A DNA stretch of 64,000 nucleotides from Pontibacter beigongshangensis. GTDB lineage: Bacteria > Bacteroidota > Bacteroidia > Cytophagales > Hymenobacteraceae. Within the stretch, counting starts at the first letter, position 1, and each line of letters opens with the position of its first letter. The position numbers and the translations under genes are program-made. The notes beneath the pieces are model-generated. The model had not been told where the DNA came from. It saw only the letters and a program-made list of their open reading frames with translations, and searched no databases. The stretch covers positions 62,001-126,000 of the forward strand of contig NZ_VFSD01000020.1 in the NCBI RefSeq assembly GCF_014332515.1, read 5' to 3'. Below, piece after piece: positions 13,966-51,262 of the stretch.

Positions 13966-14103
13966 TAGCAGGACATAAGACATAAGACACAGGAATTTTG
14001 CCTGAGCCAGGACATCAAATAGATAAGAGTAAGAATTAATTGTTTGTTGAAGCCAGCACAGGTCATTCATCTCCAAATTTCCAATTAGCCAATTAGCCAT
14101 TTA

Positions 14104-14142
14104 CTAATTAGCACATCAGCACATTAAGCTATTAGCACATTA
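14104..14142 (-). repeat. GTGCTAAT-type repeat starting in the guaD stop codon
   Basis: On the minus strand this 39-nt unit begins with the guaD stop codon TAA and continues TGTGCTAATAGCTTAATGTG. It aligns without gaps to the 39 nt starting at the scoA stop codon (50534-50572), 32 of 39 bases being identical by eye. It is not part of any coding sequence apart from the stop codon itself. Confidence 0.8.
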
Positions 14143-14613
14143 ATAAGCATTTTTATTTTCATGCTGTTCCCAGGCTTTAAAGCCTGCCAGGGCTTCTTCG
14201 TGCAGCAGTTGCACCATGGGTATTTGTCTGTTGGCCAGTGGTTTATCCAGTTCTTCGTATATAAAATAGTCGTCGAAGCCGATGCGGGCAGCGTCGGATT
14301 TGGTGTTGCCGTAGTACACTTTGCGGGGGCGGGCCCAGTAAATGGCGCCCAGGCACATGGGGCAGGGCTCACAACTGGTATACAGGTCGCAGTCTGTGAG
14401 TTGAAAGGTGCCCAGTGCCTGGCAGGCTTTCCGGATGGCGTCGACCTCGGCATGGGCCGTTGGGTCGTTTGAAGCGAGCACATTGTTGAACCCACGGGCA
14501 ATGATCTCCCCATTGCGCACGATTACGGCTCCGAATGGCCCCCCGAAACCAGCTCTCATTTTTTCTATAGACAAACGGATGGCCTCCCGCATAAATTCTT
14601 CTTGCTCCTTCAT
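14140..14613 (-). CDS. guaD: Guanine deaminase-like nucleoside deaminase
   Basis: A 157-residue cytidine-deaminase-fold enzyme. Zinc and catalytic residues are visible as HAEV (His54, Glu56) and PCPMC (Cys84, Cys87). The HAEVDAIRKAC, CEPCPMCLGAIYWARP and GFDDYFIYEE segments and the KNAY end closely resemble the Bacillus-type guanine deaminase, which swaps its C-terminal part between subunits. It would convert guanine to xanthine in the cytoplasm. A related purine or tRNA deaminase activity cannot be excluded, but TadA is less likely given the C-terminus. Its stop codon is the first triplet of a repeat. Confidence 0.82.
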   Translation of the reverse strand: MKEQEEFMREAIRLSIEKMRAGFGGPFGAVIVRNGEIIARGFNNVLASNDPTAHAEVDAIRKACQALGTFQLTDCDLYTSCEPCPMCLGAIYWARPRKVYYGNTKSDAARIGFDDYFIYEELDKPLANRQIPMVQLLHEEALAGFKAWEQHENKNAY

Positions 14614-49383: not shown

Positions 49384-50034
49384 CTACACCTGCACTTCCG
49401 GTATTTCGCCTTCTATTAGCAGTGTTCCTGCCGTTGCCCTTTTTATGTCTTCTACCGATACGCCTGGTGTCCGCTCCAGCAGTTTAAAACCCTGCCCGGT
49501 TACCTCCAGCACGGCCAGGTCGGTAACGATTTTCTTGACACATGCCAGGCCGGTAAGGGGGAGGGTGCAGTTTTTCAGAAGCTTGGAGGAGCCGTCGCGG
49601 GCGGTGTGCTGCATGGCCACGATAATGTTTTTGGCAGAGGCCACCAGGTCCATGGCGCCGCCCATGCCTTTCACCATTTTGCCCGGAATTTTCCAGTTGG
49701 CAATGTCGCCGCGCTCCGATACCTCCATGGCCCCGAGTATGGTCAGGTCCACATGCTCGCCGCGTATCATGCCAAAGCTGTCGGCGGAGCTGAACAAGGC
49801 GGAGCCCGGCAAGGTAGTGATGGTCTGCTTGCCGGCGTTGATCAGGTCCGGGTCCACCTTGTCTTCGGTGGGGAAGGGCCCCATGCCCAGCAAGCCGTTC
49901 TCCGACTGCAGCACCACCTCCAGCCCTTCCGGAATGTAGTTGGCCACCAGCGTGGGGATACCGATCCCCAGGTTGACGTACATGCCATTCTTCACCTCTT
50001 TGGCAATTCGCTTTGCAATTCCGTGTTTATCCAT
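49384..50034 (-). CDS. scoB: 3-oxoacid CoA-transferase subunit B
   Basis: A 216-residue class I CoA transferase beta subunit. The catalytic glutamate is Glu45 in [15 protein letters not shown]. With subunit A it moves CoA from succinyl-CoA to acetoacetate. The start ATG 50034 is immediately preceded by the GTGCTAAT-type repeat arm. scoA lies on the same strand 535 bp upstream, with an S23 gene inserted between the two. Confidence 0.92.
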
Positions 50035-50079
50035 GTTAATGTGCTAATGTGTTTAATGTGCTCATGTGCTAATTTTTTT
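50035..50079 (+). repeat. GTGCTAAT-type repeat arm next to the scoB start
   Basis: On the plus strand it begins GTTAATGTGCTAATGTG and continues with TTTAATGTGCTCATGTGCT, ending in T-rich sequence. It is an inverted match to the arm at 50534-50572 and to the repeat at 14104-14142, with a one-base insertion. It touches the scoB start codon. Confidence 0.78.
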
Positions 50080-50120
50080 CTTGCTTCGGGCCTAAGTTGT
50101 GGGCTAAAAAATGAGCTGAG

Positions 50121-50492
50121 TTATTTACTGTTTAATTTGCTGCTGTGAATGATCCTCGAGAGTAGCTTTTGTACTTCCAGAAGTTTATCTAATTTATCAG
50201 ACGTATCCGGATAACCTACACGTAACTTGCAGAGCAACAGCCAGTATTCAGTTTCTTTGGCTTCTTTGGCCGCAATTTTAAGTTTATGAATAAAATCTGC
50301 TTTGCTCTCAGCATGTTGCGATTCCCAGACATTGGCTCCTATAGACGTGCCGCTTTTCAGAAGTTGGTTGGCAATCACGTATTTCTTTTCACCTTCAAGG
50401 GCCTCTGCATACTGGATAATGGAGAGAGCAAACTGAAAGGACTTGTTTACTATTACGTTATCAGAAATTCCAGTATAATTAATCCCATTCAT
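50121..50492 (-). CDS. Four-helix bundle protein (S23 / 23S rRNA intervening-sequence type)
   Basis: A 123-residue protein of the S23 family, marked by LLKSGTSIGANVWESQHAES followed by FIHKLKIAAKEAKETEYWLL. Relatives are encoded in 23S rRNA intervening sequences and include the Avd accessory protein of diversity-generating retroelements. The stand-alone function is not established. The gene is flanked on both sides by inverted GTGCTAAT-type arms and lies between scoA and scoB, which are normally adjacent, so it looks inserted. Confidence 0.85.
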   Translation of the reverse strand: MNGINYTGISDNVIVNKSFQFALSIIQYAEALEGEKKYVIANQLLKSGTSIGANVWESQHAESKADFIHKLKIAAKEAKETEYWLLLCKLRVGYPDTSDKLDKLLEVQKLLSRIIHSSKLNSK

Positions 50493-50533
50493 TATATATA
50501 CCCAGTTACAAACTGAAAAAATTAAATCATCCT

Positions 50534-50572
50534 CTAATCAGCACATTAGCACATTAAAAAATCATCACATTA
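50534..50572 (-). repeat. GTGCTAAT-type repeat arm starting in the scoA stop codon
   Basis: On the minus strand the 39-nt unit starts with the scoA stop codon TAA and continues TGTGATGATTTTTTAATGTG. It aligns without gaps to the unit that starts in the guaD stop codon, and in inverted form to the arm at 50035-50079. Confidence 0.8.
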
Positions 50573-51262
50573 AACTACCGTCCGCTGCTCGATGCGTTTC
50601 TCGTAGTGGGTGCCCTGGAAGATGCGTTGCACGAAAATGCCGGGGGTGTGGATCATGTTGGGGTCGAGCTCGCCGGCGGGCACCAGCTCCTCCACTTCGG
50701 CCACCGTTATGTTGCCGGCTGTGGCCATCATGGGGTTGAAGTTGCGGGCCGTGCCTTTGTAGACCAGGTTGCCGGCCGTGTCGCCTTTCCAGGCTTTTAC
50801 AAAGGCAAAGTCGGCCTTGAGCCAGGTCTCCATCAAATACATTTTACCGTTGAACTCCCGGGTCTCCTTGCCTTCGCCTACCTCGGTGCCATAACCTGCC
50901 GGTGTGAAAAAAGCCGGAATACCTGCCCCACCTGCCCGGATGCGCTCTGCCAGCGTGCCCTGCGGAATCAGGTCCACCTCCAGCTCGCCGGTGAGCAGCT
51001 GGCGTTCAAACTCAGCGTTCTCGCCCACGTAGCTCGCTATCATTTTCCGGACCTGGTGCTTTTGCAGCAGCAACCCAATGCCGAAATCATCTACGCCTGC
51101 GTTGTTCGAGATACAGGTCAGGTTCTTTACCCCCAGCCGCAGCAGCTCGGCAATGGCATTTTCGGGGATGCCGCACAGCCCGAAGCCCCCGAGCATCAGC
51201 GTCATGCCGTCTTTGATGCCCGCCAATGCCGCGGTGGCATCTTTCACAGTTTTATTGATCAT
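50570..51262 (-). CDS. scoA: 3-oxoacid CoA-transferase subunit A
   Basis: A 230-residue class I CoA transferase alpha subunit. The CoA-binding glycine-rich start LMLGGFGLCGIPENAIAELL and the later FFTPAGYGTEVGEGKETREF segment are characteristic. It partners with ScoB encoded downstream. The stop codon is the first triplet of a repeat arm. A near match to the promoter -7 box, one base too long, lies just upstream. Confidence 0.92.
   Translation of the reverse strand: MINKTVKDATAALAGIKDGMTLMLGGFGLCGIPENAIAELLRLGVKNLTCISNNAGVDDFGIGLLLQKHQVRKMIASYVGENAEFERQLLTGELEVDLIPQGTLAERIRAGGAGIPAFFTPAGYGTEVGEGKETREFNGKMYLMETWLKADFAFVKAWKGDTAGNLVYKGTARNFNPMMATAGNITVAEVEELVPAGELDPNMIHTPGIFVQRIFQGTHYEKRIEQRTVV

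Follow-up and report, generated by a model that had tools for sequence, protein, structure and literature searches.

Here, we report that the S23 gene found between scoA and scoB in Pontibacter beigongshangensis is enclosed by inverted arrays of a short word, and that paired arms of this architecture surround S23 genes in several bacterial phyla. The arms and the S23 gene change together and travel together from site to site, and the cassette is present or absent at one and the same junction in related species. The block is interpreted as a small selfish cassette in which an S23 gene lies between inverted arrays of a 7–8-nt word, a reading to which we assign a probability of about one half. 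The S23 protein is thereby tied to a long-known, unexplained class of bacterial repeats. To our knowledge S23/IVP genes have no agreed role outside rRNA, and we know of no agreed source for the short tandem word arrays of Cyanobacteria and Bacteroidota; these two puzzles may be one. Since the pairing of protein and word is lineage-specific, both puzzles become testable: each S23 protein predicts a putative binding site of its own, and a ready-made specificity set is available in the many natural pairs.

The S23 block between scoA and scoB

The window, i.e. the whole stretch of 64,000 nt that was analysed, contains the following features:

50035–50573, minus strand: whole S23 cassette between scoA and scoB (535-nt gap here)
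50536–50573, minus strand: upstream arm (in the sense of S23), an array of GTGCTAAT-type 8-nt words that supplies the scoA stop codon
50121–50492, minus strand: S23 / 23S_rRNA_IVP / TIGR02436 four-helix-bundle gene of 123 aa (PF05635 and TIGR02436 profile scores)
50036–50074, minus strand: downstream arm, the same word in an inverted array, ending at the scoB start
49384–50034, minus strand: scoB, 3-oxoacid CoA-transferase subunit B, host gene (TIGR02428, 322.8 bits)
50570–51262, minus strand: scoA, 3-oxoacid CoA-transferase subunit A, host gene (TIGR02429, 280 bits)
14068–14143, minus strand: loose array of the same word (AATTAGCACATCAGCACATTA) without an S23 gene, beside other short words (word scan)

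The initial annotation had described an S23 gene bracketed by inverted arms within 535 nt between the scoA stop and the scoB start, with the arms touching both codons. This description is borne out: the TAA of the first arm word is the scoA stop codon and the other arm ends at the scoB start. The arms are complementary and inverted. One pair of 23 nt matches at 91% and another of 16 nt at 100%, and the pairing score of the arms, 45 (43 in a separate inverted-pair scan), was equalled by none of 200 dinucleotide shuffles. The arm self-match of 0.61 at lag 8 reveals a tandem array with a word period of 8. Allowing up to two mismatches, the 14-mer AATGTGCTAATGTG occurs four times in the window against an expectation of 0.44, a count reached in none of 100 shuffles. 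An Rfam scan of the window gave no match at the gathering score. In the predicted MFE and centroid folds of the block RNA the arms pair as a terminal stem; folding of the whole element reached a z of only −1.78, and 6 of 100 shuffles were as good.

The protein scores well above the cut-offs of both family profiles (PF05635, 80.2 bits against 33.8; TIGR02436, 89.9 bits against 24) and is basic, with a pI of about 9. Among solved structures, its closest relative is 2rld (E 1.4e-23), and 2gsc, a weak match in the structure search, is a relative according to the profile search; both PDB entries have five chains. The remaining weak structure matches, at E 0.24 and above, were taken as chance. A work cited in PMC3936711 refers in its title to five four-helix bundles of Xcc0516 (2gsc), and the available part of PMC3936711 gives the family motif as GxxRxxxSxxxNxxE. 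At this motif the window protein reads QLLKSGTSIGANVWE, with S, N and E kept, Q in place of G and K in place of R, and a looser form of the motif is present in 90 of 94 S23 proteins of the genus. S23/IVP genes are widespread: of 118 genomes sampled in the phylum, 90 have them.

The scoA–scoB junction across the genus

That scoA and scoB normally abut, as the initial annotation held, is right for the genus. Among 50 genus genomes, that of the window included, the gap is 15–49 nt in 35, filled with an S23 gene in 12 (match threshold 1e-5) and longer without an S23 match in three; gap lengths run up to the first scoB codon that aligned, which in most cases takes in the scoB ATG. The same source had proposed a cassette inserted at the operon junction with both genes left open, for which empty sites in relatives would provide a check; both genes are open, such bare sites were found in 35 of the 50 relatives, and not all relatives hold S23 there. 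In all 12 filled junctions the S23 gene runs in the sense of the sco genes. The three longer gaps without S23 measure 279 nt (L075, genome G006), 215 nt (L113, G036) and 146 nt (L109, G033). Arm-like words are present in the G006 and G033 gaps, with a different word at each end, and the G006 and G036 gaps may, when read by eye, contain scraps of S23.

By reading, four of the filled junctions have GTGCTAAT arms and eight have ATTTGAAG-type arms; the script labelled three as A and eight as B and left one without label. Again by reading, 10 of the 12 take the scoA stop, TAA or TGA, from the first word. In a tree of the sco genes, types A, B and bare sites are intermixed and presence is patchy: the filled G011 adjoins the bare G042, G048 and G003, and G000 (A) adjoins G029 (B). 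This pattern fits repeated gain and loss, which a tree of one operon only cannot prove. The A and B proteins are 52–65% identical and adjacent on the S23 tree, so that one old insertion with a later change of word is as possible as two insertions.

Comparison by eye of bare and filled sites gave no clean or consistent target duplication. Also by eye, several bare sites already have bases that match the A-type end TTAA or the B-type end AAATCA, which could reflect joining at short matches. An unsystematic viewing of loci yielded no near-identical S23 cassettes at different sites, and no movement was caught.

Paired arms around S23 genes

Arm p-values express the complementarity of the two flanks relative to dinucleotide shuffles. 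The genus set comprised 94 loci (92 of 146 genus matches together with L001 and L003), 60 of them taken by E-value order and not randomly; complementary arms were found in 71 of the 94 at p≤0.005 and in 79 at p≤0.05. For the phylum set, in which 29 of 30 loci were new, the corresponding numbers were 16/29 and 21/29. Named genomes were represented by the best 80 of at least 584 confirmed named relatives, reduced to 79 by the omission of L242 with its short flank. Here 48, 61 and 71 of the 79 loci had arms at p≤0.001, 0.01 and 0.05, compared with 0, 1 and 1 of 73 displaced controls, and the own arm pair beat 95% of mismatched pairs at 46 of the 79 loci.

The plasmid set held 19 of 28 records, 18 of them cyanobacterial and one from Gemmatimonadota, and omitted H12 and H13 (near-copies by score), H20 and H24–H28 (partial) and H21 (distant). 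Arms were present in 17/19 at p≤0.01, as opposed to 0/19 controls, a count in which L338, L342, L343 and L345, whose arms resemble one another, are not independent cases. Some plasmid S23 genes lie inside gene sets (L332, L333 and L337), at cyanobacterial cas6/cas4 and cmr2/cmr3 junctions. The available text of PMC3936711 describes for Pleurocapsa an S23 gene that separates cmr3 from cmr2, and the reported links between 23S rRNA IVP and cas loci may be such S23 insertions. L331 and L334, also on plasmids, are antisense to both neighbours. In the genus set, a rough open-frame test placed a neighbour on the other strand at 9 of 94 loci, including 5 of 5 at site 8, with 18 loci left without a call.

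The window genome has five S23 genes. Four have inverted arms, each with another word, and in the fifth (L005) a single word array was seen by eye, without pairing. The expectation in the initial annotation that other S23 genes would have the same arms thus held for the inverted arms and failed for the identical word, which differs by S23 lineage. When 177 gene-like ORFs of 85–200 aa in 854 kb of this genome, S23 included, were submitted to the arm test, nine had arms at p≤0.01, namely S23, a Y1-match ORF between hairpin repeats and seven ORFs with other repeats or weak matches. Among the nine, word arms were seen by eye only at S23.

The arm word follows the S23 lineage

Periodicity was assessed in arms that were 24 nt or longer and had p≤0.01; the two from any one locus are not independent. 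In the named set (best 80 of at least 584) the self-match was 0.65 at lag 7 and 0.67 at lag 14, against about 0.3 after shuffling, and lag 7 was best in 81 of 100 arms. In the genus, the best lag was 7 in 50 and 8 in 43 of 94 arms. The median arm of 31–32 nt holds about four words.

Word labels were drawn by eye, L038 and L174 being labelled by hand, and a site label required one matching flank, which is looser than a two-sided match. On a tree of 94 S23 proteins the 15 word labels, counting 'none assigned' as one, need 16 changes, close to the minimum of 14 and far below the shuffled mean of 72.5. Without the unlabelled rows, the 14 labels need 13 changes, the least possible. A single arm family common to all S23 genes is rejected, each lineage having its own 7–8-nt word.

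Copies at the same site share their arms by descent, and crossings between sites are therefore the telling cases. One lineage keeps the same word at several sites in A (site 1 and L039), L (sites 9, 12, 15 and 16) and K (sites 7 and 14), and different lineages with different words occupy one site at site 0 (C, D), site 1 (A, B) and site 4 (H, L003). A label-free comparison of arms was made over 79 loci with arms at p≤0.05, grouped by S23 identity and site. At different sites, the median arm similarity was 0.71 for S23 identities of at least 70% (23 pairs) and 0.31 for 55–70% (541 pairs); at the same site it was 0.84 (181 pairs) and 0.33 (70 pairs), respectively. Together with the site crossings, these similarities indicate that the arms go with the gene and not with the site. 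S23 proteins that are about a third different have another word. Within a word class, the two arms of one locus had no pairing advantage over arms combined across loci in 10 of the 13 classes; such an advantage was seen in F, K and L, and the pooled test gave p 0.0005.

These crossings bear on whether the block could be a fixed regulatory unit that is not mobile, with the paired arms as an RNA stem tuning scoA/scoB output and S23 as a helper. Such a unit would suit the keeping of junctions over many species (sites 0–10), the sense orientation in 12 of 12 filled sco junctions and the predicted ability of the arms to pair. We nevertheless consider it unlikely, as 35 of the 50 relatives have no cassette, sites 0, 1 and 4 host different S23 lineages with different words, and the same S23 lineage is found at other junctions (L039; sites 12, 15 and 16).

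Word copies away from S23 genes

A 20-mer of the window word, with one mismatch allowed, has 82 copies in this genome and 158 in the 50 genus genomes. Of the latter, 142 belong to the five genomes with GTGCTAAT-armed S23 (82, 34, 12, 10 and 4), and the other genomes have a median of 0 and a maximum of 4. The one-sided rank test for this association gave 4e-6, and 3e-4 after deduction of four copies per carrier. Words D and B showed the same trend (p 0.003 and 0.028 after the four-copy deduction), and for word E the link was gone (p 0.25). These tests ignore kinship and score carriers from the 94 loci only. Among the D carriers, L128 failed the arm test (p 0.33), and high copy numbers also occur outside the scored carriers, with 71 copies of D in G029 and 40 of B in G000. 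With 82 copies as against five S23 genes in this genome, the GTGCTAAT word is mostly found away from S23. This, and the difference of the word between lineages, point to one architecture and not one repeat family.

A strict array scan of 854 kb of this genome detected 25 arrays with a period of 7–9, and none in two single-base shuffles. Thirteen were assigned by script to words of the genome's own S23 genes L001, L002, L003 and L005; by eye, the other 12 divide into eight that fit words C, A or B, two that resemble coding repeats and two that fit none. An inverted-pair scan of the same 854 kb returned 55 pairs, nine of which have arms of a 7–8-nt word (self-match of at least 0.59), that of the window S23 included, and the rest are mostly hairpin-type or other repeats. 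Five pairs without S23, with loops of 83–116 nt, are made of the words of the window (two), L001 (two) and L003 (one). An origin of such pairs by inner deletion of S23 cassettes was considered and rejected, as only the arms align in the six viewed.

Dispersal of the word at about 80 places in this genome, and the existence of arrays and of pairs without S23, are what one would see if the arms were host repeats at hot spots that belong to the site and at which S23 arrived later. One lineage keeps its word across sites, lineages at one site differ in word, and the abundance of words A, D and B is linked to the S23 that matches them; an origin of the arms as host repeats is accordingly given little credence.

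Other mobility systems and known relatives of the cassette

Passive carriage of S23 by a different mobility enzyme, be it a RAYT/Y1 transposase or a reverse transcriptase that spreads the words, has some appeal in view of the six Y1_Tnp (Y1 transposase) matches in the genome, four of which lie between inverted repeats, and of the S23-like Avd protein of diversity-generating retroelements (DGR), which works with a reverse transcriptase (PMC10053308, available part). A search of the genome (75 contigs) covering Y1 and RVT_1 produced no RVT_1 match. Within 700 nt of the six Y1 matches, seven word patterns gave no S23 word array and one stray match, and the repeats at the Y1 genes have no 7–8-nt period. 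We found no support for either enzyme as driver of word spread, and this origin is held to be improbable. A REP-type system is present in the same genome as the S23 cassettes and is a separate thing. At G000:C12:216815-217691, near L329, a Y1 match lies between long inverted hairpin repeats of the CGCGAGCTTTCAGCTCGCG type and forms a RAYT/REP-like unit.

The small size, inverted ends, bare sites and short pairs without S23 would also suit an ordinary insertion sequence or a MITE bounded by terminal inverted repeats. Inside the block there is no transposase, PF05635 being the sole family match of its gene. The ends are degenerate, lineage-specific word arrays without consistent target duplication, and no fixed terminal inverted repeat is common to the copies, the word differing by S23 lineage. 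We regard this origin as very improbable.

The S23 cassette fails tested features of rRNA IVS, RAYT/REP and IS. RAYT genes lie between inverted REP repeats that are also dispersed as pairs (REPINs) and singles. The window gene too sits within inverted repeats that are dispersed through the genome, but its protein is S23 and not a Y1 (HUH) transposase, and the repeats are word arrays and not palindromic hairpins. The likeness to DGR Avd lies in the S23-like protein family, and the difference in the lack of a reverse transcriptase match in this genome. Short tandem arrays like those of the S23 arms are named STRR. They are mostly intergenic, and differ from the arms described here in that the latter form inverted pairs around S23 genes with a word that follows the S23 lineage. 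The TAACTGA heptamer arrays of Cyanobacteria, Beggiatoaceae and Bacteroidetes have a period of 7, compared with 7 or 8 here; the abstract of PMC4679880 finds no transfer mechanism evident, and the available part of that paper makes no mention of S23, four helix or intervening sequence. No link between S23 genes and such repeats was found in the open-access literature consulted; most subscription papers and bioRxiv were outside the scope of the search, and absence of such a link is unproven.

In the known 23S rRNA IVS, an S23 ORF lies within complementary ends and RNase III cuts in vitro (PMC4990558, available part). The block resembles it in the S23 frame between stem-forming ends (428 nt there, 535 nt here). 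It differs in its position at a protein-gene junction and not in the 23S rRNA gene, and in ends that are arrays of a 7–8-nt word also dispersed in the genome.

A possible mechanism

If the block is a selfish S23 cassette, the arms of its transcript may, as folding predicts, form a stem that closes a loop containing the S23 frame, an arrangement like that of the 23S rRNA IVS. By analogy, RNase III would cut at the arm stem and the host operon would remain unharmed. The S23 protein would recognise and bind its own repeated word and might, together with host enzymes, help to place copies of the arms at further gene junctions. Arm pairs and single, STRR-like arrays without S23 could then be non-autonomous offspring of the cassette. 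A putative five-subunit ring and the roughly four words per arm might even mean one word per subunit, which is a guess. Where S23 genes are antisense (L331, L334 and others), a role in operon splicing cannot hold; cutting of the transcript would bring no gain and the explanation must rest on the word alone. The mobility or RNA-related role suggested in the initial annotation is still plausible.

More tentatively, S23 proteins may be the makers and keepers of bacterial heptamer and octamer tandem repeats, a two-part parasite unlike a transposon, intron or retroelement. Each S23 lineage would then recognise one word, keep inverted arrays of it as cassette ends and seed arrays of that word between genes.

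Other dispersed repeats

Two further repeats were observed in genome G000. A CTCCGGAGGGCCTTTTTCATTAGAATAATT-type dispersed repeat occurs in inverted pairs, for example at C12:65554-65928, C1:44090-44383 and C1:103548-103701, and adjoins GTGCTAAT words in several places. Inverted pairs of TAACCCAAGTTGTGCGGTAG or a shorter form, 265–337 nt apart, are located at C12:74609-74964, 115570-115925 and 277991-278367 and at C1:161634-161936, and the TAACCCAAGTTGTGCGGTAG pair in C1 is nested within a pair of the GAGTGAAT word that lacks S23.
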